Assembly: GCA_950295325.1 (NCBI GenBank)
Contig: OX485805.1
Coordinates: forward strand, 54,646,758 to 54,710,757
Reading direction: 5' to 3'
Source: Polytrichum commune
Taxonomy: Eukaryota > Streptophyta > Polytrichopsida > Polytrichales > Polytrichaceae
DNA length: 64,000 bases
Shown: one piece after another, positions 2,127-51,155 of the stretch
How positions within the stretch are numbered: the first letter of the stretch is position 1
How the letters are laid out: each line of letters starts with the position of its first letter
Notes under the pieces: generated by a model
What the model saw: only the letters and a program-made list of their open reading frames with translations
What the model was told of the DNA's origin: nothing
Databases searched by the model: none
Program-made: the position numbers and the translations under genes

Positions 2127-2323
2127 GAGGTTTTGCTAAAGGGAGCAATGTGAGAAATTTCTCAAGAAAACCCAACGAAACCCAGCTTCAGCTAGAAATG
2201 TGAGAAATAGAAGTGAGAGGGATTCAATGGAGTGCTTCGAAGAGTGAAAGTATGAGGTAGATGGGTCTAAAATGGTTACTTTTTCCGACTAGCCCACTTC
2301 CGACATGCAATTAGTACAACAAA

Positions 2324-2349
2324 CACTATATTCGTTAAATTGAGACTTT
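2324..2349 (+). repeat. left terminal inverted repeat of the 16.9 kb element
   Basis: 26 bp starting CACTATATTCG and ending GAGACTTT, an exact reverse complement of 19186-19211. It is preceded by AAA. Confidence 0.75.
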
Positions 2350-3047
2350 CTCTAGTCTCAAATTAATATATGGATCAAACAACATGAAGATGCCCGAAAC
2401 TATATTGTCAACAATCTCAAATATATTAAATGTTCTAATATCCCACACCTATGATGTGCGGACATAAGCACATATGGTAGAGCACTCAACACCAACTTCA
2501 TCAACAAAAACACATTGGGTAGAGCACTCCAAACAAGTTTCACCCAAAAATATATATATAATGATTTCTATTATTAGCATGCTCCATAGAATATAGACAT
2601 TGCAACATACAAAGTGCATGTAATAAATGCATATTTTTTCAATGGACAATTTAGTCCCAAACTTAATAAAAAAAATGAACTTCACATTTGTATTGAAATA
2701 TAGTAAATGGATATTCATCCAACTCCAAAACAATATAGTATTCGTAAGTTCTACCCAAACTCTGCCCCAATTTTGAAGAGCACACATATGAGTAATATAT
2801 GTTCGTAGAATTACATATTACACTATAATCATGCTAACACAATCCTACCAACTTCTCATTCAACGTGGGTTGCTTCTTCTGCGATCCGAGCAAGGTTGTC
2901 TTTTGCAAAAATTATGTACTTTTGAGGGATGGACACTGATCCACTATGATTTTTCCGTGGTTTTCATGCTATGAATATGGAATCTGTATCTACCCAAGAT
3001 GGACCGTGCTCAGAATCCACCTTCCACCGAAAGTTAGGGTTTGTATC
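2350..3047. other. left subterminal region of the 16.9 kb element
   Basis: Non-coding and AT-rich. It carries short repeats GGTAGAGCACTC at 2476-2487 and 2518-2529, and a 29 bp block at 2605-2633 that recurs inverted near the right end. Such arrays are where CACTA transposase accessory proteins usually bind. Confidence 0.55.
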
Positions 3048-5941
3048 CTAGCCTGTATAATGCCGTATCACATCTTCATTCCTTGCCGTCGGTCGGTAGT
3101 ACTCCACTTGTATTTGTCGAAAATGAGGGCTGGAAGTTACAAAATTGGGTTTGGACAAAGCTCTTGCCACCCACACTGGCTTCACATATGTCTCGTCTCC
3201 AGGACGCAAAATGAGCATATAACCTTCATGACAATCCACTGCAATGCGGAAAGATGGTGGCGGACGACTACTAGCAGGCCCCACGTAATGGTCGTCCACA
3301 TCAAACTCCTCTCGAACCTCTCCATTTCCCAAAAGACTAGCCTCTAAAGCTTGTACATCGACTCGTGTTTGTGGCCAAAATCCATGCTTTAAAGTATGAG
3401 GGCTATCTTGGTGGAGGTCTACCAAGGCGGCACGAACACGTGTCCAATAATGTATCCAACTCCCATAACGATGCCAACATGATCCGCCAACATCCGCTAT
3501 CTTCAAACTCTCCCAATATTGTATGAAGCCTGATATACCTTTCAAAATATCCTCCAAATTCTTCATGGCTATTGGCTTACAAGGGCTAGGCTCCCCATCC
3601 GGTAACATGGTCTTCCCATCCGCATCCACGCGCCACACAAGAAGACCCTCCGGCGGGCTCCAGTCTTGTGTCGTGCACAACAACTTGTATTGCATGGCCA
3701 GGACACCATCGTCACGCATGTAAAACCGGAATTGTTGTGCCTTCGTATGCCCAATCAATCGGTGAGCTCCACTCCGAATATAAGGTTCTATAAATGCCTT
3801 GAAGTCTGGCACCTCCTCAATCATATGGGGGATGACGGGAACGTTCTCCAAATCCATGTATGACTTCATCAATAATGGAATTGTAGGAAAATCCTCCTAC
3901 CGCAACTTCATGCTCCACCGCCCAAAAGATGCATCAATATCATCGTGCGTGTGGCCTACCAATAGGAAGGACACAAAAACCTCCTTGAAAATGCCTTTCG
4001 CAACCAACAACGACCAATATGCAAATACATATCTGCTTTTATTGTCCTTGGCACAATTGTCCAATTGGACACGCAAAGTTGGAGGCAACTTCTTGGCAAT
4101 CACGGGTTCATTGGGTGGCTCGGGCAACGAATGTAAGCATACATCTTTTCCATCCAACACCGCTTCATATAAAGGTGTTGAACCCGTGTTCTCAAATAAC
4201 AATCCTGAAGAATAGGCTGGTGGTTTCTCTAAATCACGTAAAAGCCTTGCAAATGATCCTATCGTGTGGTTTGAATCCGCTGGATACAAATCAAGAGCAT
4301 AATGAGCAAACTTGACATCACCGTGTCTATGTGCAATCATTCCTGCAATGCCAACCCAACGTGATTAGCATCTATGTATGAATAAACCATTATGAAGGAA
4401 TCCATGTTCTCCAGTACATCACGGAATAAAAAACCACAACATTTAGGGTATGTCATGACATTGTTTCGAAGTTCACCTGTAACCGATACAGGCAACTTAA
4501 AAAACCCATCCGTGGCCTTTATTCAATTTGCAAAACATGGGGAGGTTGTTTTGGCATGGTCCATTTTGTCATGGATGACCGTAAGAACCTCCAAGGGCCT
4601 GGAGATGGACAAAGCTCTATTTGTGTAGTAATCATTACGGTGTGCCTCTTGCATGTTTACGTGCTAGAAATAATTCAATTGATGCGCTGCATATGACTCG
4701 GTACCCATCGTGTGTGCATCCCGGAGGTGCTTCAACTTCTCGCAATTAGAGCACCTGGCAAATTTGTCCCCTCGTCTTTTTGTAATGTATTCGCTAAAGT
4801 TTTGTTTCTTGATTGCACTCAATTTTGACAATGAAATTGGCTCCAACCCAATCTTCTCGCCAACTGCATTAACGTCCAACAATATGTCTTTCCATTTTGT
4901 GCCTGTGGGAAGAACTTTCTCCACAACCTTTTCACCGGTTGTGAGTGTGCGTGTTTTGTGCGGCATTGCATCAGCAAGGGGGACAATGATGGTTGCTAGA
5001 GTTGTCGTTGCTTGCCTTGTTGCTTCCCTAGGTTTCTTTAAACCCACGTTCCCATGGTGACGGGACCGGCGGCCTTCCTTGGCATAAGCAGCTTGTCTAT
5101 AGAAGTCCGCCTTCGACACACCGTGAATGGTGTACCATGCCTTACAACACACGTCTATGCTTTCAATGGTGATTACCTTGCGACCCGTCCCATTCACATG
5201 TATTGCCCTATGGACATCAAGTTTTTTTGTAGATCTTAGACGAAAATCTCCAAGCCACATTTCTTCACGGATGGCCTTCAATTTATCCCTTGGAAACAAT
5301 TGGCAATAACGATGCACACAACAATCTTTTGTGGCAACTTCTCTTATGGACTCCTCCCCAAGCAGCCTTTGACGTTTACAATTAGTTGCAGATGGAGAAG
5401 GACGTGCCACAGTATCGTACTTTCTTTGACCCTTGCGTGGCCGCATGTTTGATTGCATTTCATTTTCGAGTTGCATGTGTCGTTGCTCATGTTCACGCAA
5501 GCTAACTCCATCAGTCGTGACATTCCTCAATGGCCACCTGCGGAGGGAGAACCTATGAGTGGGATCCACCTCAGAAGGAACGAGTGACTCCAATATGACA
5601 ATCCCAACGTCCTCGGTGCCAAGCGGATTTTGATCAATGCAATCTTGTGGATGGGTGTTACGACAAATACCCTCCGCCACAACAACCCCACTGTCATTAA
5701 GAAGTAACACATCCAAATTCACCCATGAAACTCTTGAAAGCCCGGAACATTCTGGAATGGGACAGTCCGGTACGGAACGCGAAGGTATATCGAAATGCTC
5801 TTCATCTGAACTCTCATCCATAGTAGCCTCCCCGACAATGTCTAGCTCTTCCTCAGATGCAGATGGCCAAGTGGCCATGTCTTCTCCAGACGAATACCCT
5901 CTTCCAGTATACCCATCCATTTTGCCTACACACATGAACAT
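3048..5941 (-). pseudogene. DUF7869-type transposon protein (candidate transposase), decayed
   Basis: Two exons, 5941-4477 and 4342-3048, joined by a 134 bp GT-AG phase-1 intron; splicing restores the family-typical VSVTG-MIAH junction. The N-terminal part is acidic. The middle holds the DCCVHR block, the CCKAWYTIHGVSKADFY block and a CxxC pair (ARCSNC) near the exon end. The C-terminal part carries DHAKT, the HYALDLYPADSNHTIGS block, QLDNCAKDNKSRYVF and VGHTHDDIDASFGR. I know these blocks from DUF7869 proteins of transposon-rich genomes, where spaced acidic residues suggest an RNase H-like fold (inference). Three in-frame stops break it: TAG at 4666-4664, TGA at 4525-4523 and TAG at 3899-3897; each is one C-to-T change from a glutamine or arginine codon. 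The start is uncertain; ATGs lie at 5941, 5935 and 5920. Confidence 0.75.
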
Positions 5942-6113
5942 GGAACCTTGTAAAGAATTGACAAAAGCTATAGGGTCCAATAGAAAAACACAGGAATCTT
6001 ATCATAACACATGTTGTATGAATATTATATCGATGGGTTCCAAAAGGATGGAGCGCACAACAGTTTGTTCAAGATCCGTCTATGCACATCCCCATTGTGT
6101 GCATGAGGGTGGG

Positions 6114-7058
6114 TTTGGGTCGAGCGACCCAAACCTCGTGCCAGAATGGGTCTGCTAAACAAAACCCACTGGTGATATGGGGCTGGGTTTGGGTCGCTCG
6201 ACCCAAACCTCGTGACAGGATGGGTGGTAATCCAGGCCCAGCGCGTGATAGCGGTGGGTTTGGGTCGCTCGACCCAAACCTCATAATGGAGGTGGGTTTG
6301 GGTCGCTCGACCCAAACCTCATAATGGGGGTGGGTTTGGGTCGCTCGACCCAAACCTCACAATGGAGGTGTGTTTGGGTTGAGCGACCCAAACCTCGTGA
6401 CAGGATGGGCCTGGTAATCCAGGCCCAGCGCATGATAGCAGTGGGTTTGGGTCGCTCGACCCAAATCTCGTGACAGGATGGGCCTGGTAATCCAGGCCCA
6501 GCGCGTGATAGCAGTGGGTTTGGGTCGCTCGACCCAAACCTCATAATGGAAATGGGTTTGGGTCGAGCGACCCAAACCTCGTGACACGATGGGCTTGCTA
6601 ATCCAGGCCCAACCCGTGACAGGGGTGGGTTTGGGTCGCTCGACCCAAACCTCACAATGGAGGTGTGTTTGGGTCGTGCGACCCAAACCTCGTGACAGGA
6701 TGGGCCTGGTAATCCAGGCCCAACGCGTGATAGCGGTGGGTTTGGGTCGCTCGACCCAAACCTCATAATGGAGGTGGGTTTGGGTTGAGCGACCCAAACC
6801 TCGTGACAAGATGGGCCTGCTAATCCAGGCCCAACCCGTGACAGGGGTGGGTTTGGGTCGCTCGACCCAAACCTCACAATGGAGGTGTGTTTGGGTCGAG
6901 CGACCCAAACCTCACAATGGAGGTGTGTTTGGGTCGAGCGACCCAAACCTCGTGACAGGATGGGCCTGCTAATCCAGGCCCAGCCCGTGATAGGGGTGGG
7001 TTTGGGTCGCTCGACCCAAACCTCACTATGGGGGTGGGTTTGGGTCGAGCGACCCAAA
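6114..7058. repeat. array of 18 palindromes TTTGGGTCG-NN-CGACCCAAA
   Basis: Eighteen copies of a 20 bp near-perfect palindrome whose 9 bp arms flank a two-base centre, mostly CT or AG (the same site in opposite orientations), once TG. Two copies have one arm changed to TTTGGGTTG. Spacing alternates between about 38 bp (filler CTCATAATGGAGGTGGG-like) and about 73 bp. The longer filler contains a second hairpin, GGGCCTGGTAATCCAGGCCC or a variant. The array lies just upstream of the DUF7869-type gene on its strand, so it could serve as promoter, protein-binding site or recombination site. Long open frames through it are by-products of the repeat. Confidence 0.95.
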
Positions 7059-8397
7059 CATTCCGCAAATTCCGCCTTAAATTGCGGTAATCTTCCATAT
7101 TCAGCTACGTGGATACTAATTGGAAGAATTCAGGCCGTGCATGGCTGTTGTAATTAGCTACTCATCAACGGATGCATACACGAACCTTGCACTCCACCAC
7201 TACTTGAGAGAGCTTGCAACCATTTCAGAATGGAGAGATGAGAAAAAAGGAGCAAAGTTTGGGGGGTTTGGTACTTTATACTACCCGCCTCCGCCTTGGC
7301 CTTCCTCTTTGGATCCCTTTCCCGCCCGAACGTAAACCCTAAACCTAAGTTCAAACCTTCTGACATAATTTCCCGCTTCTTGTTGGTAATAGAGCATCCA
7401 TATTTAGCCTGCCTCTTCGTGGCGCCAACCATCAAATGACCTTGGACAACTAACCTCCTAATTCCGCTATTAAATAACTACACAAAATATGATGTGTGGA
7501 TTTGATTATATGTAGTGTTGTTACCACCCTTACATGCTCAACATTAATTTTCAATCCTATGACAGTTAGTGTTAGAAGTAAATGTGTTGCTACCTTCTAC
7601 TCTCACGTATATTTCTTCTTTTCACATCCTTACTAACACTAAATTCAAACATGTCAATGCCACATATTACTATAGCTTATATTTATTGTTTGAGTTTATA
7701 TTTAATGTTTATTACTTTCATATGGTTATTGATATATTGTGTATGCACTTGTATTTAGTGTATCAAACACTAAATATCATACTTATTGTAGTTGTGTTTT
7801 GTACCTATAGTTTTTATTGATTTGGCTTGCCAAAAAAATGTAGTCAACTTTATTTGTTTTAACAAATGTTTGATGAAAAATCTAAACATATATAGTTGTA
7901 TCTATTCAATGCAAGTTGAGCAGAACATGTCCTTAAATACATGTTGGTGTGTTCTAGTGTCACTACACCAAATAAGATATTTAGAGATTTATACACTAAA
8001 TATGAACGCATCTACGACGTACCAATACCACTATGACAGTAATTAACATTAAATGTAAACTGAAACACTCAATGTTAATTATAAAGGTCATATGTTTGAA
8101 CATAGTGTTAGTAAGGACACATGACATTTTTTAGTTCGCTCTTTCAAGGATTTTTAAACCTATCATGAACTCCATTTCAACTGCAGCTTTGCATGTGAGC
8201 CAAACATGCAAAGTCGAATAATATGTACGTCCTCATAACAAACATAACATGAAATGTAACCAACGTTCATGTTCATGAATTAGACTATTGTGATATCTAT
8301 ATACATTTGTTTTTAGAACCACAAGCGACTTGGCCCCCTCATTTGACCTATGCGCCATTCATTTATGGCTTCGAGTGCAACAAGACACATTTATATA
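7059..8397. other. no gene seen; AT-rich
   Basis: Begins with GC-balanced sequence and becomes strongly AT-rich after 7440. A short inverted match exists between about 7624-7641 and 8104-8121, perhaps a decayed MITE, but no target duplication was found. Confidence 0.5.
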
Positions 8398-8444
8398 CCC
8401 TAAACCCTAAACCCTAAACCTTAAACCCTACACCCTACACCCTC
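8398..8444. repeat. short interstitial telomere-like repeat (CCCTAAA)n
   Basis: Three clean CCCTAAA units followed by diverged CCTTAAA and CCCTACA units. This is the plant telomere motif, here inside the chromosome arm and within the transposon. Confidence 0.85.
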
Positions 8445-8466
8445 GTAGTTGTTCAGGGTTGCTTCC

Positions 8467-9030
8467 CACGGGTAGGTCACTTAGTGCATTTTAAAAACGA
8501 CCTGTGGCATAATATAGAGAGGATTAAAATCATTTGAAATAAAAATTATAAAGGAATTCCAAATAATGAAGGGGCCATTAAATGTAGACAATCCCATTAT
8601 AAGTAAGTTAGATGGACATAAAATGTGGGCCATTATTTTTTTGTAAAATTAATATAGGGGCTGAAGATAAGGTTCCTAGAAGGTATGTTTAGTATAATGT
8701 TTGCTATGGTCTCCTATGTGTTTTCTTCATAACTTTGTTTGCAATGATATTATTGTTTGCACCCTTCTTTGTTTCCATGGTTTCCCTTAACACTCGTCAA
8801 TGCGTTAGGAAGTAGATTAGCTTTTATTACTTAAAAGGAATATAGAGTACAAAAAATTGCAGTGACTTGGACAATATAAGTAATGGAAGGGTGCAAACAA
8901 ATGGGCCATTTTTGAAATTCAAGTAATTATAGGGAGGCTTTAATTCAACCCTTGAAGGTAAATAGCCCCAAAACAAAAAACCCCGAGCCGCACGTGGTGC
9001 ACAAAAATGCCTTAGAGTGACCTACCCGTG
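8467..9030. mobile_element. 564 bp MITE, 8 bp target duplication (one mismatch)
   Basis: Terminal inverted repeats of about 26 bp begin CACGGGTAGGTCACT on both sides, with minor mismatches. Flanks are TTGCTTCC (8459-8466) and TGGCTTCC (9031-9038), consistent with an 8 bp duplication and hence a hAT-like origin. There is no coding capacity. It is nested inside the 16.9 kb element and so inserted later. Confidence 0.75.
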
Positions 9031-9944
9031 TGGCTTCCATATAGAACACCATCTACTGTAATTTGTGCCTCATTTCCTAATAAGATATGTTGTTTAATAT
9101 ATGTGGAGGGATCATCCAACAACAAAGTGATTGCTTAAATGGCTTCATATAATGTTGAACTCCACATATTAGTATTTGATAGCTTCATATTTGTATAAAT
9201 GGTGCTTCTCTCATTTACTATCACTATATTCAATATTTGTAGACTTTATCTTGTCTCAACTAAATATATGAACAACAACAACATTGTCTAATGTTTGGGT
9301 CGTCCTACCTAAACCATCTTCATATGAGTTCTTAATTGGGTTCTTCAGCAAAAACACCCGCTTCAATATATTTGTATCTCATAAATATGTAAACTTCTAA
9401 ATAAGTATGTTAATGTTCCATCATGCTATAAATCAAACAACATCTTTGTTGCTTTTCGCAAACAACAATGATATTAAGTTGTCAACACTTAATATTGCAT
9501 AATTCCATATTATAATGAATGACATTACATAAACTTGTATAATTAGATTTAGTTCAATGGTATGTGTTAACGGATCCATCGTAGGCTATAGCATTGTCCT
9601 TTACCAACAACCTTCATAGATAATTACAATATATATAACTCGAAACCATTCATTGTGTAAATGGTTACCATAGTTATATTATTCCATTATGTAATTGCCT
9701 ACGAGGATTGCAATATAATTATTAAATACTCCTCTTAGTCTAGTATCTATCATTCTCGATTCATCCATATGTGTAGATTACTAAAATTACAAAACCAATA
9801 CAGTTTCATTATTTGATATTAGCAAATCCATCGGGAGACCATTAAATTAAAAACCTTAGGCTATAAAGGTTTTTTAGTATCCTCAAGGATGGTATGGGAT
9901 ATTAGGTGGCTAAAGGATACCCACCTGCGAGGCTTATCGACCGT
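9031..9944. other. AT-rich spacer with one diverged palindrome
   Basis: No gene. At 9294-9316 lies a decayed palindrome (gtttgggtcgtcctacctaaac) followed by sequence also present near 19035-19100 (atgagttcttaat-ggggttctt), linking this spacer to the right subterminal repeats. Confidence 0.55.
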
Positions 9945-10075
9945 CGATGGGCCTGGGGCTCTCCAATGGCCCAAATTGTGTATTCGTTTGGGCCATGGAG
10001 CGCCCCGTGACACGTGGCGGCCATGAGCCGAACGGACACGAAAGGCGCCGGCCCGAATGGGTCCCGCCCTTGAGT
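9945..10075 (+). promoter_or_regulatory. candidate promoter of the ParB/methyltransferase-like gene
   Basis: A GC-rich island in AT-rich DNA. It holds several TGGGCC/GGCCCA motifs (site II elements, bound by TCP factors in plants), including an inverted pair ATGGCCCAAA (9966-9975) and TTTGGGCCAT (9987-9996). An ACGTGGC core (G-box/ABRE-like) lies near 10013. A CT-rich leader follows. Promoter function is inferred from motif content and position. Confidence 0.45.
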
Positions 10076-10380
10076 GACCTTCCCCCTTTCACTCTCCCCT
10101 CCGCACTTTCTCCTTCTCTCTCCTCCGCTCCAAGCTCCTCCTCCTTTGTACGTTCCTCATACTTTCTGGAGGCGCCGCCGCTCTTGAAAGCGCCGCCTCC
10201 TCCCTTGCATTCTCTCTCTCCTTGTCGAACTCGCATTCCCTCTCTCCATCCCTCTTCATCATTATCTCATTCTCTCTTTCACTCCTCCTCTTCTTTTGAT
10301 CTATTTTGTTGTTCATTGAGTGCGCATTGAGCGAGTTCTGAGTGTAGTATGAGTTTTAGGGTTTGTTTTTGTATTAAAGT
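10076..10380 (+). other. CT-rich probable 5' leader
   Basis: Strongly pyrimidine-rich (cctccgc, ctctctctcc runs), typical of plant 5' untranslated leaders. Open frames across it are compositional. If it is transcribed, the segment from about 10.4 to 11.92 kb would be a leader intron ending at ctacttgcag|atg. Confidence 0.4.
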
Positions 10381-10952
10381 CTATACATTTTAGCCATTTC
10401 AGAACGTCTTTGTTGTTTTGGAGTGTGAGTGTTGTTTCAAAGTGGTTGTGTCAGTTCCTCCTGGTCTTAGAAACATTCATGTGTGAGTGTAGAGTGATTT
10501 CGGAATTAAAATGATTGTTCGAAAATCAGGGTGCATGTGTGGCCTTCAGATAGCTTCTTTGTTCATGTTTGTAAACACTTGTTACATTCAGAGTGAATGT
10601 TTGTGAGGGATTGTTTAATTCAGAGTGAATGTTTGTGAAAGTTTCTTCAATTCAAAGTGAATGTTTGTGATGCGTTCTTAGTTTTCTGATATCCAATCCT
10701 TTCTAGAATCAACTTCCAAGACTAGCTTGTTAGAACTGCTTCCAACAGCAGCTTGTTGTGTAGTTTGCAAAGCAAGGTAATTTCTTCAACTTCTTTATGT
10801 GTGTCAATTTCTTTAGAGTTTCGCAGCATCTACAATGCATAAGCATTGTATATGCTGCGTAAACACATTATAAAGGTCTCTGGAATCAAAAGTGTTTCGA
10901 GAGACGACCCAAACTTCAATTTGAAACCCTAAAACACTAAACTCTGCAGCTG

Positions 10953-11896
10953 GTTTGGGTAGAGCGACCCAAACTCTCCAGCTGGTTTGGATCGTTCGAC
11001 CCAAACTCTGAAGATGGTTTGGGTCGTTCGACCCAAACTCTAAAGATGGTTTGGATCGTGGGCGCCAATCCATCTGCAGAGTTTGGGTCGCTCGACCCAA
11101 ACCATAAGCATTGTTTGGGTTTAGGGTTTAGGCAAACTCCACATCAAATGTTCATTTATAATTAATTTAATCATCATCTTGGGTGAATATCTAACCCTAT
11201 CGACCCAATCCATCTACAGAGTTTGGGTTGCTCGACCCAAACTAGCACCTGCTTTGGGTCGTTCGACCCAATCCTTCTGCAGAGTTTGGGTCGCTCGACC
11301 CAAACTAGCACCTGTTTGGGTCGCTCGACCTAATCCATCTGCAGAGTTTGGGTCGCTCGACCCAAACTAACACCTGTTTGGGTCGGTCGACCCAATCCAT
11401 CTGCAGAGTTTGGGTCGTTCGACCCAAACTAGCACCTGCTTTGGGTCGCTCGACCCAATCCATCTGCAGAGTTTGGGTCGTTCGACCCAAACAGCGCATG
11501 AAATGGTAATTGATAATTTAGGTAATCATCATCTTGGGTATGATCTAAGGCCATAGCCGATCATTCCATACCGCTACAAAGTTTGGGTCGAACGACCTAC
11601 ACTCTGCGTAAATTTTTACTGCTTATGAACAATACTTACACTTATAAACAACAACTCAAACACCCAAGCAATAATGAAATGACCAACAACTAGAACAGTA
11701 GCTCCTGATGATTGTGGTATCTATGAACATAAAGATTGGTTTTCGTAGCCAAATAATATATTATTCATTAGCCATTGTAGGCACAGGTTTGGGTCGTTCG
11801 ACCCAAACCTGTGAAAAGTAACCCCATATATAAATGTTACTAAACCCAGACGTAAGCCTATATGATTTGAAAGAGTTTGGGTCGCCCAACCGAAAC
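10953..11896. repeat. cluster of about 17 palindromes upstream of the large gene
   Basis: The same 9 bp-arm palindrome as at 6.1 kb, with centres CT, TT, GT, AA and others, in tandem units of about 60 bp that carry two palindromes and the filler CCATCTGCAGAG / TAGCACCTG. Dense from 10953 to 11100 and from 11200 to 11493; single copies near 11583, 11788 and 11877 (the last degraded). It lies between the candidate leader and the first coding exon, so it is probably intronic or leader sequence. Confidence 0.9.
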
Positions 11897-13249
11897 TAAC
11901 ATATGTATTTCTACTTGCAGATGCCCCCCAAGAAAAGACCTGGAGAACGATGGTTCAAGCCGACACCAGACGCGATCTGGCATGAGCACGAAACTCCTAA
12001 AAACTAATCCTACGTAGCAAAAGAAGACCTTGTAATTGCATGGTCCTTTCTTGTAGTAAAGGCAGCTCAATTCAAAATCCTCCTTGTTTTGAAAGTTGGC
12101 ACGGAGGAGCAACACACATGGGATCCTTTGACGGGATGGGAGGTAACATCAGTTCAGGCTCTAGGAGAGCATGTTGACGTCATCCTGGAAAACTCTTCTC
12201 TGGAAAATGTGCACATGTTCATGCATGAGCAAGCCGAGCCATTCGATCCGGTATACGTGAAGGAATCCTGCGCTGAGCCAGACATTGTTAAACCGGATAC
12301 AATCTTCATAGATGCGATCATTTCAAACATGAAGGTTGCAACCAGGTTCACTAAACTTAAGCAGACAATCAACGCAATAAACAAGACCTAGCAAAGCAAG
12401 TCAAAATCTCAACAAGCTGTGAGGCGCAAGGCGACTGCTGAAGAGGGCGTAGGGTCGTCAAGACCTCAAACAGTGAGGAAGCCCCGACCGGTTCCAGCTG
12501 ACTCGAGGAGAACAACACCTACGGCAACTCCTGCTGATAGTGAAACACCGACGCCATCAGAAAGCCGGCAGACGACACCATCTAAGAGGCCGAGAGAGTC
12601 AGCATTTGCCATGACAGATGAGCATGTTTCACTGGAGCTACGTATGCCCAAGCCCGGGGAAGGAGTGGAGCCATCGGAGATCCAGAAAATACTCAACAAT
12701 TTCGACACCAAGTGTTTACATTGTTTTTTCATGGGCAGAGAATTCAAGTTTGATGTCAATATCGCACAATGCCACCTAGCGCCACCAAAGAAGTGCGTTC
12801 GGGCAAAGGAAAATGCGTATGTTGATTGGTTAATCGCCCAGATGGTGAGCGACCAGTTTAAACATGATAGGCAGACTATTGTTATCATGTCTCAGGGACA
12901 CAAAAGAATGCCTACACCGGATATGTGGCCTTCTATAGAGAAAGGCGATTTTTGGCTGATTGACGGTCAGCACAGTGTTGAAGCTTCAAAGAAACTTCAA
13001 CTGATGACGGAGTGGAATGATCCCAATGGTCTAAAGGATAAATTGAAGGTATGGAAGGCATTGGTCGTGTGGTCGGACGACGAAACCCGGCTGAGCGATA
13101 TCTCCCGCTATTTCAACATGAATAACAAGAAGCGGGCATATCAAGCTTTTTGTATTAGGAACATCATGGCATCGCGGGATGTGTGGGAGTTCTACGGCCG
13201 GCCTCCCAAGGAAAGGGAGAATGCAAAAGACAAGAATCCAAAGTGGGAG

Positions 13250-13482
13250 GTGAGCATTGTTTATCAAACAGAGTTTGGGTCGATCGACCCAAACTTTGTG
13301 TTTCTTCATACAGTTTGGGTCGCTCGACCCAAACTTTGTCTTTCTTCATACAGTTTGGGTCGCTCGACCCAAACCTTGTGTTTCAGTTTGTGTTTGTCTA
13401 CGCAGTTTGTTGTTCATCATTTTTCTTCTTTGTTTGGAAACAACATATTGAGAATTAACACGCATTCTATGCTCTTGTGCAG
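13250..13482 (+). other. intron 1 of the ParB/methyltransferase-like gene, with three palindromes
   Basis: Donor gag|gtgagc, acceptor gtgcag|ctt. It contains TTTGGGTCG-NN-CGACCCAAA at 13274-13293 (centre AT, a perfect palindrome), 13314-13333 and 13354-13373 (centre CT), at an exact 40 bp period. Confidence 0.8.
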
Positions 13483-14805
13483 CTTTTCAAATACCAAATG
13501 ATAAACAAGTTCTCCTCAATTGACAATTCAAGTCACAAGCAAAAGAAGTACAATGAGCTAAGAGGAGAGATCTACTTGATTACATCATCCGACATGGTTT
13601 AGAAGAAGTGGAAGACAGTGTTTGAGAAATACGAGACAGGGGATCTCATGGATCCTGACACATGCAACCTCTTCAACTCGTCCTCTCGATTCAAGGCGAT
13701 GAAGCCTCTCATGAGAGAATTCTTTAGAAGTCTGCAGGGTCTTTCGGAGGCGGAAATGGGGAAGGCGGCAACGCACATCTTGCACAACAACCCGACCCCT
13801 AAAAGATTTTGGGTGTACCCCAAAATAGTCTTCACCAAGCCGAAATCCTTTGTTCCTTCATGCTACACAATGAAGGAATGGGCGGAGAATAGGAAGAAGA
13901 AAACAATGATCGTCCAGGAGCTGCAGAAGCTAATCCCGGAAAAGAACATTTTTGTCGATGATGAGGTGAACTGGAGAGCGTTCAAGGCTGAATACAACTT
14001 CACCAGTGCATCCATGGCAACTTTGATCAGGGAGGCAGGAGAAGACTTCCTAAAGTCAAAACTGGTGAAGGGTGGGAAGAACCTGGCTCTTCCAGAACAC
14101 TCGACGCGTGCCTTCTCGAACTTTATAAAGGAGAAGAAGATTGTAAGTTTTGAGGGGGATGCGCATTTCAACCTTGTCGCTTTTGACCCTATTAAAATCC
14201 AGGGATGGCCTGGCCTTGATTCCAGGAAAGAAATACGAGTAAGAGCAGCGGACCGGTTCCCCTTTGGCATAATAGACTTCCGGAGCATTCCTAGGAGTAC
14301 GTTTGAGGGCACAATGGGTACACCCTTCTACGAGCCCTTCATGTCGAAGTTCGTGGAGTATGCAAGCCCTAAGCTTAGGGAGGTCGATATGTGGCTGTGG
14401 ATAGTAGAGGATAGGAGAGCAGAGCAGGTGTATGAAATTGTGAGGAAATTGCAGCCTGAGTATGCGGTGTCTAAGTCTCATTACATTGCTGCACCGGCGG
14501 AGGGGGTGTACACGACACTAAAGGACAAGAAAACCAAAATCATGAATTTGTTGTGCTTGTACTTTGTGTTCAAAGCAACCTTGCTGAAGGTGGAGAACCA
14601 CCCCATAACCCGGATGCAGAAACTATTCCAAGTTCCAGAAGGCCTGGGTGCAAGTAAGTCCCTCTACGACGAGGCAAAATATGCCATATACCATTCGGAC
14701 GAGTTGCGGATGGAATTCTATCTCCGAATAATGAGGGCCTTGACGAGAAGAGGGGACTGTATATTCAACGTCTTCGGCGGCACCAAGCCCATCTTCGCTG
14801 GCATG

Positions 14806-14955
14806 GTAAGCTCCTTACCATAATTGTTTTCATAGTTTGGGTCGCTCGACCCAAACTATAACCTTTGCAATTGATATTTGGTCTTGTATGTACTTCCCTT
14901 TTTTGTTGGAATCACATGTTATGCCATATAATAACATCTGGTGGGATTTTTGCAG
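14806..14955 (+). other. intron 2 of the ParB/methyltransferase-like gene, with one palindrome
   Basis: Donor atg|gtaagc, acceptor tttgcag|atg, phase 0. A perfect-arm palindrome with centre CT lies at 14836-14855, 30 bases inside the donor. Confidence 0.8.
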
Positions 14956-16071
14956 ATGCTGGGGCTGAACGTGTACAGCTATGTAGACCTTAATGACATC
15001 CAATTCTACAAGGCCCAAAAATCGTTGGCGAAGAAGATGGATATACTAGACTGGATCCCTGGGAGCTACGCCGAGGAGACTGTTGAAGGGGGTGAGAGCC
15101 CGCTGGATAAGGCGAGGCGTGTCAACCCTGAAGAATTGGCCATAAGGGTTCCAGTTGTTGTACCAGAGCCTCTGGTCCAAGTGCATCCAGGCACATCCTC
15201 TCGGCGACCGCGTGACGAGGAGGGGGAGGAGGAGGTGGAAGAGGAGGAAGAAGAGGCTAAAGTGGAGGGCGAGGTCGAAGAAGGGGGAACAGGCTTCACT
15301 CAGGAATCTGAAGCCCCTCAACGAAAGAAGGCAATGCGGGTAGCAACTCCACAAAGTAAGTTGGTGCCCGTCCTGACGGTTGATGATGCCCGCGACATGT
15401 ATTCCAGGGACGCGATTGCCGCGTTCAAGGAGAGGAGGAAACTAAAAGGCAAGAAACTCTATGGCGACTATGCCATCGAGGAGACAATTGCCATTAGCAG
15501 CGAAGACGAGGGCGACATGGAGCTCGCCAAACGGCTCAGGTCGGACCCTCCTTCTCCAGGGGCCTTCGCAGGGATGGTGAAGGTGAAGCCGGAAGTCCTC
15601 ACCGTGCAAGAAGCCAACGAGAAGATGTTAAGGGACGAAGAGCAGCGCGTCCGCTTGCAAAAGGCCGCTGCTGAAGAACCCTCAGTGCGGAATGAAGTGG
15701 CAGAGCTAAGGGCTCTCTTATTGGAGCAAGAGCGACTGCGGGCATTGGCGCAACCTCCAACTAGTGCGGACTTAATCACGCAAGTGATTCGAGGCATGTG
15801 GGCGCAGGGTTTGGTGGTGGCTCCCCCGGGCTCATTTCCACACTTGCCCCCCGGCTTCCCTCCCCAGAACATTCCTCCGCAGCCCGTGCCGCAATCCTCC
15901 TTCAGCTTTCAGCACATGGTTCCCCCCCACGTCCGTCCGTATCCGCCGGTTCAACAAGCGGATGACCCCAATATATGGCGCCTTCCCGGGTCTTCTAGAC
16001 CTCTGACCCCCCCACCACTTCGGCCGCCCCTGGTGATCCCCCCGCCCCATCAGCAGGACGACCCCCACATG

Positions 16072-16160
16072 TTTGGGTCGTCCGACCCAAACCCGCCCCC
16101 CCTTACAGTGCAACAAGGCCAATCTCATGATGCAGGAGAGTTTGGGTCGGCCGACCCAAA
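16072..16160 (+). repeat. two palindromes inside coding sequence
   Basis: 16072-16091 (centre TC) and 16141-16160 (centre GC, perfect palindrome) lie in the proline-rich tail of exon 3, in frame, where they read as FGSSDPNP and FGSADPNP. Arms are intact despite being in an open frame. Confidence 0.9.
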
Positions 16161-16440
16161 CCCCGTGACCGCTCAGTCTTCAATGGACCAGCATGGGTCT
16201 GAAAGAGACACACCCATGCCTGATGTTGAAGGTCCTCGAGGGCCTGGTGATACTTCTACTCCTATCCCAATCGATGAACCTATGCATGATGCACATGCGG
16301 AGGTTGGGTTAGGAGAAGGTCCTGACACTGAGCGCTTGTAGGAGAGGGGTGCTGACATCGTCGGAGAAGGCGGTGGCGAGAGAGAACGACAAGCGGAGGC
16401 GGTGGAGGCTTCCATGGCGTCCAGGCATGACCAGGGAGAG

Positions 16441-16931
16441 GTAATACACTGAGACCTCCTCAGTTTGGGTCGCTCGACCCAAACTCCTGGTCTATTGTCT
16501 TGTTGCCGTGGTCGTGTCCCCCCTAGCTAGGAGGAACTGCCCCCACCCCGTCCATCCGCTCTCGCATCCCTTCACCCCCCCCCTTCGCGACGATCACTAA
16601 CGTCGCCCGCCCCACGATTTTACTCGAACTTGGAGGCGTGCACACAATTTTGTAGATGTTGAATTAGGATAGTTTGAACGGATCGTTCAACGCGGCTTCG
16701 CACCCCTAGGCATTTTGTACATAGAGCATTGCAAACAATAAAATTATTATTTTGTGCCCATATGTTTGTTTTCGTGTTCAAATGTATATTTTGTCCTCTT
16801 GCCCCCTCTTGGATTTGCATGGCCGCCTATGCATAGTGGTTCTTGTATTTTTCACAGAAAATATTGTATTCACTTTAAGTGGACATAGCATGACATAGTC
16901 TTCCCCCGCCTTATGTCGCTCGTCTCCACAG
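16441..16931 (+). other. probable intron 3, with one palindrome
   Basis: Donor gagag|gtaata and acceptor ctccacag|gga are both phase 0, so the ParB/methyltransferase part could be spliced to the FCP1-like part. A palindrome (centre CT) lies at 16464-16483, 23 bases inside the donor. If the transcript instead ends here, this is an intergenic spacer. Confidence 0.5.
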
Positions 16932-17744
16932 GGATCGGAGCATAGCGTCGCGGCTCCCCACCGGGCCTCTCCAAGAAGCGAGGAAGGTAGCGCGATGGTC
17001 CCCCCCATTTTACCCGTTCCACCTTTGCCGCCTAAGACCCGGTTCCTGGTGTTAGACCTCAACGGGGTCCTCGTCCAATGCGTTCATTGCCCGAGGACCC
17101 CCACGGTGCCCTTTTGCAAGCCCGAGGACGCGAATTACGACGGGCCGCCCACGTTCATAAAGAGCAAGCTAGTTCACCTCCGCCCGTGGCTTCGGACCTT
17201 CCTCCAGATCGCCCAACAACGATGGTGGGTGGTCGTGTGGAGCTCCATGAAGGCCGAGAACACCAATGCAGTCGTGGAGTTCATCTTCAAGGGCATCGAG
17301 CCCCCCTGCATGGTCCTAGCACAGGAAGCTTGTAGAATATTGTACACACCGGACAGCAAAGTCGTCAAAAAACCAAACAACCCCGCTTCCCCCCAATACC
17401 TCAAGGTCTTGAAGCCCATTTTTTGGGACCAGCGTCCGTCATTGATAGGTGTCCCCTACGACGTCCGTCCCACCCGGGAGAACACGCTCATGGTGGACAA
17501 CAGCGCCGCAAAGAACATGTTGAACCCGACGGCCAACTTAATAGTTTGCCCTACGTGGACGGTCGAGAAGGTCCGGGACCGATTTTTGTTAGACCTTAGT
17601 AAATACCTCCAGGCGCTCAGGGGAAGCGGACTACCTGTAAACAATTTTGTTAGGAATAATCTGATAGGCGAGAGATACTTGGATCCACGAGACCATTTGT
17701 ATAGAGAGTTGTTCTCTCACGCGAAATTTAACAAGCTCATTTGA
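16932..17744 (+). CDS. FCP1/NIF-like HAD-family domain protein (possibly last coding exon of the upstream gene)
   Basis: Intact frame; either ATG 16995 starts a 249-residue protein, or the frame continues back to an acceptor at 16931 and joins the upstream gene in phase 0. Counted from 16995, the HAD motif I is LVLDLNGVLV (nucleophile position Asp21; the usual second Asp is Asn23), motif II is VWSSM (residues 81-85), and the late acidic motif is LMVDNSAAK (Asp168, where FCP1 proteins have DD). FCP1/NIF enzymes remove phosphate from phosphoserine in the RNA polymerase II tail. The DxN change is seen in plant FCP1-like relatives and raises doubt about catalysis. Base composition is much more GC-rich than the surroundings. 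It looks like captured cargo within the element, with no break seen. Confidence 0.75.
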   Translation, partial: GSEHSVAAPHRASPRSEEGSAMVPPILPVPPLPPKTRFLVLDLNGVLVQCVHCPRTPTVPFCKPEDANYDGPPTFIKSKLVHLRPWLRTFLQIAQQRWWVVVWSSMKAENTNAVVEFIFKGIEPPCMVLAQEACRILYTPDSKVVKKPNNPASPQYLKVLKPIFWDQRPSLIGVPYDVRPTRENTLMVDNSAAKNMLNPTANLIVCPTWTVEKVRDRFLLDLSKYLQALRGSGLPVNNFVRNNLIGERYLDPRDHLYRELFSHAKFNKLI

Positions 17745-17752
17745 GGCAGTAC

Positions 17753-17780
<28 letters not shown>
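17753..17780. repeat. (GT)n microsatellite
   Basis: About fourteen GT units directly after the FCP1-like stop codon. Confidence 0.95.
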
Positions 17781-17783
<3 letters not shown>

Positions 17784-17865
17784 CGCCCGCCCACTTTGTG
17801 TAATATATGCTTCATATGTATCTTGATTTTCACGCGCTGTATCAAACCCTCCTCCCCCTTGGGTT

Positions 17866-18661
17866 TTGTTTCGTTTCCTTTTTTGCGCCATCGTTTGGAG
17901 CCTTCGATTGAGATCATCAGCGAGTCAAACTTGGGGAGCTTCTTCTACGAGACCGTTTACGACGCCGCGTCAACCATTGACTACTCCAAGGAGCCTATTG
18001 ACGCCGGCGTCGTCGATAGCCCCCCACCCAAGCAAATCTTACGGCGATCTCCGTCCCCGTCGCCGCTCAAGGGCATAAATCACAAATGCGTCCGGACATC
18101 CCCCTCTCGGCCCGGCGGAAGTATTATACCTCAACGGCGGCTGTGGATGGACGCACGGCCAACGAAGAGTGGAACCCTTCCTATTCCTTTGCGGGACGCC
18201 TTGCCCCTCCTCGCCAACTCCGACGGGAACGCCCCCGGTGACAAGGTGAAACCCCCCCCCCCCAAACATGGTTAACCGCGCATTACAATCATTTTGCACT
18301 TAAAAAATGATCATGTGACACGTTTGGGTCTTCCTCCCTAAACTAACACATGTGGTCTTGCATTGACGCGTTGCAGGTTGCTCCCACCCGTAAACCTATG
18401 CGGTCTAGTGCGTCCATCGAGTTCGAGCATATGTACGCCATGACCAGAAATGCGAGACAATCCACTTCATCGTATTCGAATTCTTCGACGTATATTTCGG
18501 GCGGCCGACGGACTCCAAAATGTGTTATGGATGGCGGTCACCCCAAGAATGGCTATAGTCGCGGGGCGGAGATTTTCAGGAATGTTGAAGCAATGCGAGC
18601 AAAAGAAGCCGCAGCAAAAGAAAAAGAGGCAAAAGAAAAAAAAAGCAATCTCCGAGGCTAG
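17866..18661 (+). CDS. two-exon basic/serine-rich hypothetical, start unresolved
   Basis: An open frame ending at 18245 (donor gacaag|gtgaaa) joins in phase 0 to 18377-18661 (acceptor ttgcag|gtt), giving APGDK-VAPTRKPM across the junction. The first part is Ser/Pro-rich (RRSPSPSP). The second has a region with ARQSTSSYSNSSTY and ends in a Lys/Glu/Ala-rich helix (AKEKEAKEKKSN). I do not recognise a family. No good ATG was found for the first exon, so it may begin upstream by splicing, perhaps from the FCP1-like transcript. The intron carries a decayed palindrome (gtttgggtcttcctccctaaac at 18323-18344), matching the pattern in the upstream gene. Confidence 0.4.
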
Positions 18662-19185
18662 ATAGGCCATAGTAGGCATAGGGTTTTGGGCCATAGGCAA
18701 CATCATTTTGGGTCGCACTATCCAATGGATGTGTGGTGTTAGCATGCTATGCATTTTACATGCCATACTTTGTATGTTTTTTTTGCAATAATATAAGTGT
18801 CACATGATTTCCCCTTCAATATGGTCCAAGGTTTGGATTGCCCTAACTAAACCATCACAAATATGAGTTTGGAATATTTTGTATGTTATATTATATTGGT
18901 TCACATAGTTCCCCTTCAATATGGTCTAAGGGTTTGGAGTGCCCTACCTAAAACATATTCATACAAGATCTCATATTTTGTGTGCGATAATATGAATGTT
19001 TTAAGATTTCCCCTTCAACTTGGCCTAAGGTTTGGATTGCTCATCCTAAACAATCCCAAATATGAGTTATTAATGGGGTTCTTGTTCTAAATACCCGACA
19101 CAAAGTGTTCACATCTTACAACTTTCTCCAATATGTGTTCCATTTATCCTTGTTCTTATTTATGTGAATGTCTCAAAATGCCCAA
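18662..19185. repeat. right subterminal region with about 100 bp tandem units
   Basis: Three units start with ccccttcaa at 18811, 18911 and 19010. Each contains GGTTTGGATTGCCCTAACTAAACC or a variant, which looks like a decayed form of the palindrome seen elsewhere. Another remnant, ttgggtcgcactatccaa, is near 18709. Parts of this region recur inverted at the left end of the element. Confidence 0.7.
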
Positions 19186-19211
19186 AAAGTCTCAATTTAA
19201 CGAATATAGTG
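19186..19211 (-). repeat. right terminal inverted repeat of the 16.9 kb element
   Basis: Exact reverse complement of 2324-2349, ending CGAATATAGTG. Followed by TTA, which does not match the AAA at the left end. Confidence 0.75.
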
Positions 19212-22200
19212 TTAACATGGGTAACAAATCCAAATTGAGGCCCTAGCCACTTTCCTCATGATTTTCAGAGCTTAAATGAATATCTCTTAAGTGGATTTTC
19301 TCACGTTCATTAAATGGTCATATAGGGTCCCTTTAATTATGTTGCCTATTGAACCTAAGATTGTCCTTATAATTTGAACAAGCAAGCCAATATCTTTTAA
19401 GCATAATGGTATCTTTTCTTGGAGCCACACCAAACTACATACCACTCATATATAGGTGTTCTAATAAGAAAAATTGAAAAGAAGGGTTTTCTACCTTACG
19501 TATAAAGGTAAGTGACCATAAATGGCACCTCTACATTTAGGCTACCTACAAACTAATTTAGACAAACCAAGCGAGTTTTTTAAGTTAGCAATTGTTCCAA
19601 ACTTGAAGCAATTGAAAATATTTGATTTTAGTGATGTTGAGTCTCATGTCTTATATGACACAAACTTGAATTGATATGTATATCTCAACCCAAAGTTAAA
19701 GTTGGCTTGTTAAGATCAATTCATGTGTTGCATCTTGATCCTTAAAATAACATCATAAAACTATTGTTTAAGGTGCACAACTTTGCAATTTGTACTTCAA
19801 AAAGTAGGTTATTTAAGGTCACTTACCTTGGAAGCAAATTGAATTGTAGTATTGAAGTATATGTTGAAGTATACTTTACAAGGTTGATTTGATGATTTGT
19901 CAACAAATCAAAGTTGAAGTACGTAATTTACAATCTATACTTTAAAAAGTAGTCAACGACAAGTGATGTGAGTGGCCACATTAATACTGTCCATATTCCA
20001 CTCAAGAATAATCAATGCCAGCTCTTGTGGAATGCGTACACTAGAAATTTTCCACTGGGTGTCTCAACTTATTGGAATTTGATGTGGACGCTATAGTTTA
20101 GCACCAAAAAAGATAAACTAGGAAGTACTATACGGTACTAGCTATATCTACGTTTTTAATCAAAATACTATGGGCACCCATAGTAAGAATATCCCAATTA
20201 ACAAGATCATTGGTTAGATCCACTTTTGCTAACACAATTGGAGGCTCATCATGTTCTTGAACTTTGTTGTTGCCTTTGTGTACTCCACAAGACAACAAGG
20301 CCTCATTGGCTTGATGTACAACTGCATCATTCACGGGAACACTTACAAGATTTTGGGAAGATTGATCATGCTTACTTACTTTGAATGCCTAGTATGATTA
20401 CTTGTGAAAGGAGAGGACATTAATTAAGATATTATAAAACGAATAAGCTAAAAATGAGAACATTATTTTAAGTTTCATTTAAAAATGGAAATCAGTAAGT
20501 CTAGAAAAGATTGGGCCTTTAGTCTTGGTGGGTTCCAGTCACATAGTCAACTTATAATGAAGTTATTTTTACTATAAGCAAGATTTCTACAACACTAAAT
20601 ATTGATTTAGAGTGGTCTATATTATTCATTATCAACTAATAATAATTGTCTCACAATTAATGAATGGCAACAAGAGAGGGGGTTTAATGACACGTGGTGT
20701 TACATGAAAAGTCACAAAGACCACAATTATTAACATGGCACATCATGTTTAATGATACACTAATTTAGATGTTTAATGCACTAGCAATTATCATATTTCG
20801 AATTTACTAAGTCATAAAACTTCAAGACATATTGCAAGGTGTCTCACTTGAAGAAAAGCCCCTAGTTTATGCTAGCCTTCTTTGTATGTATTTGTGTATT
20901 TTTCAGAGCAAATTACTCCAAACCTTATGAAACCATTGGAAGTGAAAGAAACTTATATTCATTGGCTATATAGACCTATATTGAGATGGTTCAATGTAAA
21001 TAAAAGGGGGGACCGAAGGAAGGAGAATTTTCGCATTTGGTGGAAGAGATATTGCAAACGGATTATTCAATGGACCTCCTCTGCAACTTAAGATCACTTA
21101 GTCCTTCTAATCCCCAAACCCTTTGATTAGTTTCATCGTAAGCATATTTACATGTGCAATTCTATAGGCAGATTTGGTCATACAAATCAAGCATCTGTTC
21201 TTCAAGACTAGATTCTAGTGTGCCTTCACTTGAATCTAAGCTGAGTGCATGAAAAAGCATCAATAATATTTTTGTTGAATCGTTGTTGCACAAAAGAATA
21301 ACAACAATTTCCCAATCCCCTACACACTAACCCTAAGTATGGCCCGGGTGAAACTTCTGATCACGAAGAACATGGAGTTGTTTGTGCACTTCCGAAATGA
21401 TGAAACTATTTAGACCAGGATTCACATAGCCTCAGATTGTAAAAATACTCTACACATGGTACATGATTGTGGCAACCTACTTGATGGGAGCACACGTATA
21501 GAAACCTAAATCTCTCGCATCTGGAGCTCAGCTTTAAGGCAGTGGGATATTTCATCTGCGCCAAAGAAGAAAGAAGGGGCGATCGGCTACTAGCTCCACA
21601 AATGATTGCATCATTGCCGACACGCCTGCTCAACGAATCTTGTCTGCATGGTGCCTGCTGAGGTCGTGAAATTGCAGTCAAATGAAGAAGCCCCGATCAA
21701 TCGGTCTTGCATCAGTTAGTTATGGCCAACACCAGCCAGGGTGGTACTGTCCATCGGCAATTAGTCACAAAATGAGCGCCCAGCTGCCTACTGATGCACT
21801 TTGACTCCATCAATCTGAGCACAAATTCGCTGGCCATGGCTGCAGATCTTTTTGTGGTGGTACGTGCATCTCTGACCCTTTCTCCTGGCCTCAGGATCCG
21901 CGCACAAGGAGGTTGTCATCACCAGTGTAGCTTCGAATATCACCACGCCCAGCATCACAGCCACGAATGGCAACATCTTCGAATTTACAGTAGTTACAGT
22001 TTTAAACGAAGCCTTGAAGTTTCTTCTACGACACTGCAAAATTAATCTTGGTCTGTCCGACCTTGGGAAGAACAATTGCTATGTGGAGCTTGAGTATATA
22101 CGAAACCTTCGCAATCCTCGCTGAAGCACCTCGACCAGACCCAATGTGCATCTGTGTACTCCGCTTCAGCCAAAACTTCTGTGAGATTAATCTAGCATAT

Positions 22201-50900: not shown

Positions 50901-51155
50901 AAAACCAAAGTTAGAAATAGGTTGGGTAGTAGGAATCTCGATGCAATGCTGCGAATTGCCTTGGAAGGGCCAGATGAGGGGGTGGATGACATAATTTGTA
51001 ACGCTATCCCACTTTGGAAGAAAGACAGTAAGTACCGTTTTTTGTATGCTAATCCTTCTTCTTATTTGAATTCTCCTAATACAGTGAGTGTGAGTGATGT
51101 GTCTTGTTCGTTTGGTGCAATTGATACTAACGGCAATGGTACGCAAATCTTGTGA
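47953..51155 (+). pseudogene. hAT transposase (BED/TTF-type finger, DUF4371, hAT C-terminal dimerisation), broken
   Basis: ATG 47953 follows an acceptor (gatttcag|gttctatt). Coding segments 47953-49680 and 50700-51155 are in one phase-0 frame once the inserted 1 kb is ignored, about 727 residues, normal for the family. Zinc-finger region at residues 50-98 (FCKIC, later HSRSNEH). Catalytic acidic residues in MVDESTD (Asp about 200) and GSDGASS (Asp about 267), then CHCVAHRTN. The C-terminal block CVSTATCERAFS carries the third acidic residue and the dimerisation motif. Two lesions: TAG at 48091-48093 (one C-to-T step from CAG, at QWAT*FKW) and the insertion at 49681-50694. Closest to ZMYM1-like/zinc finger 862-like hAT transposases. 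Confidence 0.92.
49681..50694. mobile_element. 1,014 bp non-coding insertion, 5 bp duplication CATGT (possible solo LTR)
   Basis: Splits the hAT coding sequence. CATGT stands at 49676-49680 and 50695-50699; removing the insert plus one copy restores RSC-KREFLAF in frame. The left end reads TGTCGCAACCC if the last bases of the repeat are counted, a common LTR start, and the right end can be read as CCGCA; in that reading no duplication remains. No coding capacity and no inverted ends. A solo LTR or a TRIM-type element fits best. Confidence 0.65.

Follow-up and report, generated by a model that had tools for sequence, protein, structure and literature searches.

A rigid two-armed palindrome in two transposon families of Polytrichum commune and its candidate element-encoded reader

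The palindrome TTTGGGTCG-NN-CGACCCAAA is found in thousands of copies in the genome of Polytrichum commune, and all copies examined are parts of transposons belonging to at least two unrelated kinds. Judged from comparisons of aligned copies, its arms are under selection, not drift. With a probability of roughly 0.55, the palindromes serve as binding sites of a dimeric protein encoded by the transposon, likely the product of an internal gene denoted here as gene B, and act in self-recognition or promoter control. The following sections describe the motif, the two element families, the conservation of the arms, and the candidate reader, before the competing explanations and the known systems are compared.

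Counts, unit, and geometry of the palindrome

In the window (the whole stretch of DNA analysed, 64,000 nt), 30 exact matches are present versus none in 100 dinucleotide shuffles. With up to two mismatches the number is 42, all within the interval 6-16.5 kb; for this interval the initial annotation gave more than 40, which holds at this tolerance and not for exact copies. Its 18 sites between positions 6114 and 7058 were recovered as 16 exact palindromes and two with one mismatch. The genome-wide search that it suggested yielded 9,731 exact copies in 407.8 Mb (0 for the backward control), so the motif is not confined to this locus. Nor is it a satellite, as the arrays are short and lie inside bounded elements, and no long head-to-tail array was seen. 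Array periods range from 32 to 78 bp, and identical arms are found with differing filler between the sites. No description of the motif was found in the open-licence PubMed Central literature among the matches listed for the arm strings, as judged from their titles.

The palindrome described at the outset as 20 bp long is real, but the conserved unit measures 22 bp. Among 191 near-exact sites (at most three mismatches) from the six regions read, a G precedes the palindrome in 179 and a C follows it in 180. The information content of these sites amounts to 1.46-2.0 bits in the arms and to 1.56 and 1.59 bits for the flanking G and C, respectively, with at most 0.45 bit at the other printed positions. 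Since the flanking G and C are conserved, the unit is to be written as GTTTGGGTCG-NN-CGACCCAAAC. The spacer is exactly two bases in 9,731 of 9,735 sites genome-wide, other spacers of 0-8 accounting for the remaining four (by subtraction). This fixed distance agrees with the dimer geometry proposed originally; the recombinase site offered beside it fared worse (see below).

The two-base centre had been regarded as free and as giving orientation, and neither view was upheld. Merely 669 of the 9,731 sites have neither an A at the first nor a T at the second centre base, versus 56% (9/16) expected if the centre were free and uniform, so that a complete half TTTGGGTCGA is kept at least once in most sites. 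Fully symmetric AT centres are no rarity (19 of 191 sites), which, together with the constraint, speaks against an orienting role. Among 50 listed sites of the 669 that break the rule, 28 stand in pairs exactly 69 bp apart; this is the distance between two sites in the coding sequence of gene B, where codons constrain the centre. A further exception is the family 2 array L054, in which all three exact sites have a GC centre.

Transposons carrying the palindrome

The first 100 genome places listed form seven clusters, corresponding to three complete copies of family 1 and four stretches of family 2; in one of these, a small piece at 475.3 kb, the similarity to family 2 is confined to the array. 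Similarity to family 1 or 2 extends beyond the palindromes in six of six further palindrome loci, in L056 solely through array filler. All these clusters and loci are on C1 and were selected by the palindrome. Mapping to genes, introns, and elements, as had been recommended, thus places the sites examined within transposons, including their introns and coding sequences, and not scattered over ordinary DNA.

The window harbors a complete family 1 element (Table 1). Its other copies are located at C1:610757-628840, C1:1174918-1193533, and C1:2112817-2129768, bordered by the 4-bp duplications aagt, cctt, and ataa, respectively; all four copies examined are flanked by 4-bp target duplications, each different, and the copies range in length from 16.9 to 18.6 kb. 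At the right end of copy C the inverted repeat AACACTATATTCGTTAAATTGAGACTTT contains mismatches. The DUF7869 protein, encoded leftward, is presumably the transposase of family 1. Its gene was matched in the three other copies; the frame is interrupted in the window copy, and the DUF7869 part is open in another. No literature on DUF7869 was found in open-licence PubMed Central.

CACTA/En-Spm elements have TIR tips beginning with CACTA and a 3-bp target duplication. An assignment of family 1 to this group is contradicted by the TIR start AACACTA and by the 4-bp duplications of 4/4 copies, and one to the VANDAL-type MULEs by the 4-bp duplications and DUF7869. Sola1 elements have 4-bp target duplications, and family 1 resembles them in this respect.

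Family 1 also contains a phosphatase-like ORF (Table 1), which was matched in all four copies and constitutes either a passenger or a functional accessory gene, and the window copy includes an interstitial plant-type telomere repeat (ACCCTAA, 6.7 units; 8397-8443). Elsewhere in the window, ORFs of an En/Spm-type element occur on the + strand at 36244-40679 (Transposase_21 and DUF4218, with DUF4216 below the cut-off), possible remains of a hAT-like transposase at 48094-51155 (zf-C17orf113, with DUF4371 below the cut-off), and G-rich tandem repeats around GGGGCGGACGG with periods of 10 to 122 bp at 55341-55785. DNA similar to the hAT-like remains is also present near family 2 pieces in region A.

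Table 1. Features of the family 1 element in the window (window coordinates)
Feature	Position	Strand	Remarks
Complete family 1 DNA transposon, 16,892 bp	2322..19213	+	delimited by comparison with palindrome clusters of chromosome C1
Target duplications aaca, 4 bp	2318-2321 and 19214-19217		
Left terminal inverted repeat, 28 bp, AACACTATATTCGTTAAATTGAGACTTT	2322..2349	+	
Right terminal inverted repeat, 28 bp	19186..19213	-	
Putative transposase gene with DUF7869	3048..5998	-	ORFs 4664-5998, 3897-4364, 3048-3896; PF25273, 5.8e-33
Array of 18 palindromes between putative promoter and DUF7869 gene	6114..7058	.	
TATA-like box TAGTATAAA of putative promoter, reading toward DUF7869 gene	7275..7283	-	promoter function putative
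Second palindrome array, upstream of gene B	10954..11491	.	13 sites with at most two mismatches; more at 11582, 11788, 11876
Gene B	11921..16341	+	predicted exons 11921-13249, 13483-14805, 14956-16341; DGQHS motif in exon 1
Three palindromes in gene B intron 1	13274..13373	.	many relatives have one here too
Palindrome in gene B intron 2	14836..14855	.	
Palindrome in gene B coding sequence (FGSSDPN)	16072..16091	.	
Second palindrome in gene B coding sequence (FGSADPN)	16141..16160	.	69 bp further
Palindrome directly past gene B stop codon	16464..16483	.	
NIF/SCP-type phosphatase-like ORF	16899..17744	+	PF03031, 1.5e-15

Family 2 is an element of 12.3 kb with palindromes at C1:2154-2160 kb and C1:438-478 kb. 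Its TIR (GCTATCTTATGAGCG...) forms an inverted repeat of about 61 bp that differs from the family 1 ends, and its target duplications are 10 bp long in both copies (AGTTGGCATG; TGGATGGAGG in the second copy, split by insertions). By its sequence features the family is Mutator-like, a group characterized by target duplications of about 9-11 bp and long TIRs; a weak SWIM match (E 0.076) was obtained in one transposase-like ORF and none in the other. The rightward gene region contains FIWDGNHRFFAW and carries a DGNHR motif, and the last ORF matches phage DNA methyltransferases (5e-5 for phrog_3008, and 1.1e-4). No ParB profile matched the family 2 protein above chance (one of 20 members reached E 0.16 with a ParB C-terminal model), and no usable match among PDB sequences was obtained. 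A relative of the first exon, used as query, gave at least 152 matches in the genome (150 of 1,258 first-look candidates scored); some of the weaker ones are 41-44% identical and may represent a further family. A second tandem array of family 2, made of ~64-bp units with the palindrome CCCTGTGCGTTAACGCACAGGG, precedes the TATA-like box at C1:2157772-2159390 (region E) and C1:461306-462024 (region A).

When the palindromes are masked, DNA comparison of the two families leaves one common region, a promoter-like segment (GCGGAGG..GGTAGTATAAA....ACCCCCCAAA), and tblastx gave nothing beyond this region among the matches listed. Identity to family 2 is 72% over 131 bp in the window copy and 70% over 115 bp in copy B; copies C and D show short matches only, with the TATA-like box still aligned and changed in D. 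In family 1 the segment adjoins the array in front of the DUF7869 gene, in family 2 the one in front of the DGNHR/methyltransferase gene, and the distance from the TATA-like box to the nearest palindrome on the gene side is about 160 bp in family 2 and 217-308 bp in family 1. As this segment lies beside the arrays in both, the transposon families appear to have a cassette of promoter and array in common.

Conservation of the arms

Three single-copy sites are orthologous among the family 1 copies W, B, C, and D, two of them in the coding sequence of gene B and one just past its stop codon. None of the 54 arm columns is variable, versus 82 of 193 nearby columns (Fisher P about 1e-11); variable columns number 444 of 1,125 over the whole aligned stretch and 4 of 6 in the centres. 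The flanks are homologous at these sites, so the sites were inherited in place and not newly inserted.

A parsimony analysis of 17 copies, which represent about three lineages, gave one change in the 18 arm columns of the site past the stop codon where 6.5 were expected (P=0.011), and five changes in its two centre columns. This site constitutes the unbiased test, the 14 added loci having been selected because both coding palindromes are exact in them; L032, which is not homologous there, was left out of the tree. The wobble positions in the two coding sites are all unchanged, for the 14 added loci a matter of ascertainment. The strong arm conservation in drifting DNA that had been noted initially is therefore supported, and an equal divergence of arms and filler at single-copy sites was looked for and not seen.

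Gene B as candidate reader

Searched with a relative of the first exon of gene B, the genome yielded at least 86 matches (86 of 1,185 first-look candidates scored). Palindromes lie beside exon 1 in 8/8 loci cut from these 86 protein matches, the eight being closely similar copies. Relatives found by protein alone number 79, at least 74 of them, the reference P0004 itself aside, at 31-81% identity to P0004. Thirty of the 79 have a readable tail of at least 10 residues past exon 1, and here a palindrome just inside intron 1 is exact in translation in 18 and present in 23 if one substitution is admitted; shuffled tails, which keep composition only, reached it in at most one of 30. It is absent in the remaining seven, namely P0012, P0015 (the 34% relative), P0054, P0055, P0059, P0062, and P0063. 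Read-through peptides of five of the 79 relatives (P0007, P0009, P0014, P0074, and P0082) raised the suspicion of a symmetric variant, TTTCGGTCG-NN-CGACCGAAA, whose bases are not fixed by translation alone. This variant has 0 copies in the P. commune genome and is a lead restricted to other species.

Three in-frame stops break gene B in the window copy. Gene B matched no Pfam family above the cut-off, and in its relatives neither Pfam nor NCBIfam recognized a ParB domain. The phage profile phrog_1033, a 'ParB-like partition protein', matches seven of 24 gene B relatives (A5) around DGQHS (best E 0.0075), in a near-tie with phrog_15511, a phage profile of unknown function that matches six of the 24. 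These matches hint weakly at a ParB-like protein. The search of PDB sequences returned nothing usable, the best hits (ephrin receptors, E 0.023) being taken as chance, and an hhalign comparison of gene B with the family 2 protein gave a probability of 0.3%, with an alignment of just the DGQHS and DGNHR motifs. With its DGQHS motif in exon 1 and the phrog_1033 matches, gene B is proposed as the putative reader of the palindromes.

Diverged relatives and other palindromes

Upstream DNA was analysed for four copies of a protein that shares 42-44% identity with the family 2 relative P0018, and the TTTGGGTCG palindrome is absent from all four in the 1.0-1.5 kb read. Upstream of L062, two exact GTGTCTCGG-TC-CCGAGACAC palindromes are found (four overlapping counts from the two versus at most three in 200 shuffles, which kept composition only), and upstream of L061 a repeated near-palindrome, GGGTTCGG-GA-CCGAAACC (one observed versus at most two in shuffles of the same kind). 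L060 and L063 are preceded by GT-rich repeats and no palindrome. A divergence of the motif along with the protein is a lead suggested by these sequences, with modest backing from the shuffles.

Two other palindromes were encountered. In region A (C1:468469-470900), ~138-bp tandem units contain a perfect 20-bp palindrome, GTGTCTCGGTACCGAGACAC, in 13 exact copies, and its arms occur twice upstream of L062, one of the four diverged copies described above. An isolated perfect palindrome, GGGGTTTCGGTACCGAAACCCC, at 56979-57000 of the window resembles the repeated near-palindrome of L061.

Proposed function and competing explanations

According to the reading favored here, the 22-bp unit would be bound by a dimer whose halves stand at a fixed distance from each other, and this reader would most likely be the ParB-like product of the element's own gene B. 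Its binding sites would be the array that separates the putative promoter from the DUF7869 gene, the one upstream of gene B, and the palindromes within gene B. By means of the bound protein, the transposon could recognize copies of itself and influence its promoters, which would most likely be shielded from host silencing, in the way VANC protects VANDAL elements, or be autoregulated.

The most serious competitor, although unlikely, is that a transcription factor or chromatin protein of the host recognizes the palindrome, which the transposons would have captured as an enhancer or boundary site and which no element protein would read. Arrays adjoining promoter-like segments, the use of the same palindrome by two families, and the conjectural role of gene B as reader are all compatible with this idea. 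It is at odds with the location of the examined sites in transposons (the seven clusters and 6/6 further loci on C1, chosen by palindrome) and with the absence of the motif from the 1.0-1.5 kb read upstream of the four more diverged copies related to the family 2 protein. A function in transposition is improbable. The subterminal repeats of CACTA/En-Spm elements are bound by TnpA, and the palindromes resemble them as short sites repeated in a TIR transposon, but they are internal and not subterminal: allowing two mismatches, the outer 3.79 kb on the left and 2.68 kb on the right are free of them in 4/4 family 1 copies, as are the outer 2.3 kb on both sides of the single family 2 copy measured. 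Moreover, they occur in introns and coding sequence as well, and TIRs and target duplications differ between the families.

Even less is to be expected from a recombinase or homing site, or a self-spreading palindrome, in which a two-base core gives orientation. Arms around a 2-bp core have a suitable geometry and many contexts hold sites, yet symmetric AT centres are not rare, the centre is constrained and not free, no recombinase was recognized among the family 1 ORFs scanned with Pfam, and in each of the four family 1 copies over 2.6 kb separate the sites from either element end; the homologous flanks of orthologous sites, moreover, speak for inheritance in place and against new insertion. 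It is also very improbable that neutral tandem repeats were produced by amplification and gene conversion, with arms homogenised. The regular array periods and the existence of young, near-identical copies would fit such a process, but single-copy orthologous sites keep both arms amid diverged flanks and changing centres, conversion tracts would need to stop at the arm borders and skip the centre, and the same arms occur with different filler. Finally, a 9-bp-arm inverted repeat can fold, and arrays in putative leader sequence and introns could form RNA hairpins, e.g. as small-RNA sources or for splicing control; there is little chance of this, given a rigid 2-nt centre where a hairpin would tolerate longer loops, and 0 genomic copies of the compensatory symmetric arm variant that was looked for. 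Binding by an element-encoded dimer is retained as the preferred explanation.

Relation to known systems

ParB proteins of bacteria bind clusters of palindromic parS sites. The system described here is similar in that palindrome clusters lie near the gene of the protein and gene B is weakly similar to a ParB-like phage family around DGQHS; it differs from bacterial ParB/parS in sequence and context. Comparable accessory proteins are described for algal transposons: Sola1-1_Ec32 of Ectocarpus harbors a ParB-like and DNA-methyltransferase gene, and such proteins, according to a suggestion made there, may bind the element that encodes them and modify it (PMC12477816). The family 2 protein, with its DGNHR motif and methyltransferase-like end, resembles them, whereas no methyltransferase profile matched any of eight relatives of family 1 gene B. 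Unlike for Sola1-1_Ec32, a concrete palindromic target is proposed here, none being given in the portion of that description considered (PMC12477816), and family 2 is Mutator-like.

The arrangement of the sites is reminiscent of the VANDAL/VANC system of Arabidopsis. VANC21 motifs of VANDAL21 are located upstream of VANA21 and in introns of VANB21 and VANC21 and change by tandem repetition (PMC5735166); VANC proteins bind noncoding arrays, regions that are also targeted by host RdDM, and bring about a loss of silent marks (PMC10398659). VANC6 targets carry motifs that differ from those of VANC21 (PMC5735166, PMC10398659). In both systems, arrays of a short motif occupy noncoding DNA upstream of the transposase gene and introns of accessory genes (PMC5735166, PMC10398659), and arrays gain and lose units between copies. 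In contrast to the VANDAL motif YAGTATTAY, the motif analysed here is a 20-22 bp palindrome with a fixed 2-bp spacer, which is also present in coding sequence and in two families that differ in their ends and transposases. Since the layout of the arrays resembles that of VANC21 motifs, and VANC acts in anti-silencing, self-recognition for anti-silencing or autoregulation may be inferred by analogy.

Taken further, the observations can be read jointly as a transposon-borne module of the parS/ParB type, in which an element-encoded dimer would load at the 22-bp palindromes beside promoters and spread or mark the DNA against silencing. A cassette of promoter, array, and reader would have been passed between unrelated superfamilies, and reader and palindrome would diverge together with a two-fold symmetry of ~20 bp being kept. 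This extended scheme is tentative and, as a whole, rather doubtful.

Significance

The system would represent another form of transposon-encoded, sequence-specific self-recognition, with a chance of its being a distinct one of the ParB type. In the portion of the literature covered, one system of sequence-specific anti-silencing by transposons is described, that of VANDAL. If the proposal is true, P. commune would provide a second design with a cleaner code, i.e. a rigid palindrome in about ten thousand copies, present in two families and with a candidate reader gene beside it. A concrete target motif would thereby be attached to the class of ParB-like/methyltransferase accessory proteins, which were suggested to bind and modify their own transposon (PMC12477816). 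The discrimination between self and host DNA, and the co-evolution of a reader with its sites, would then become testable.
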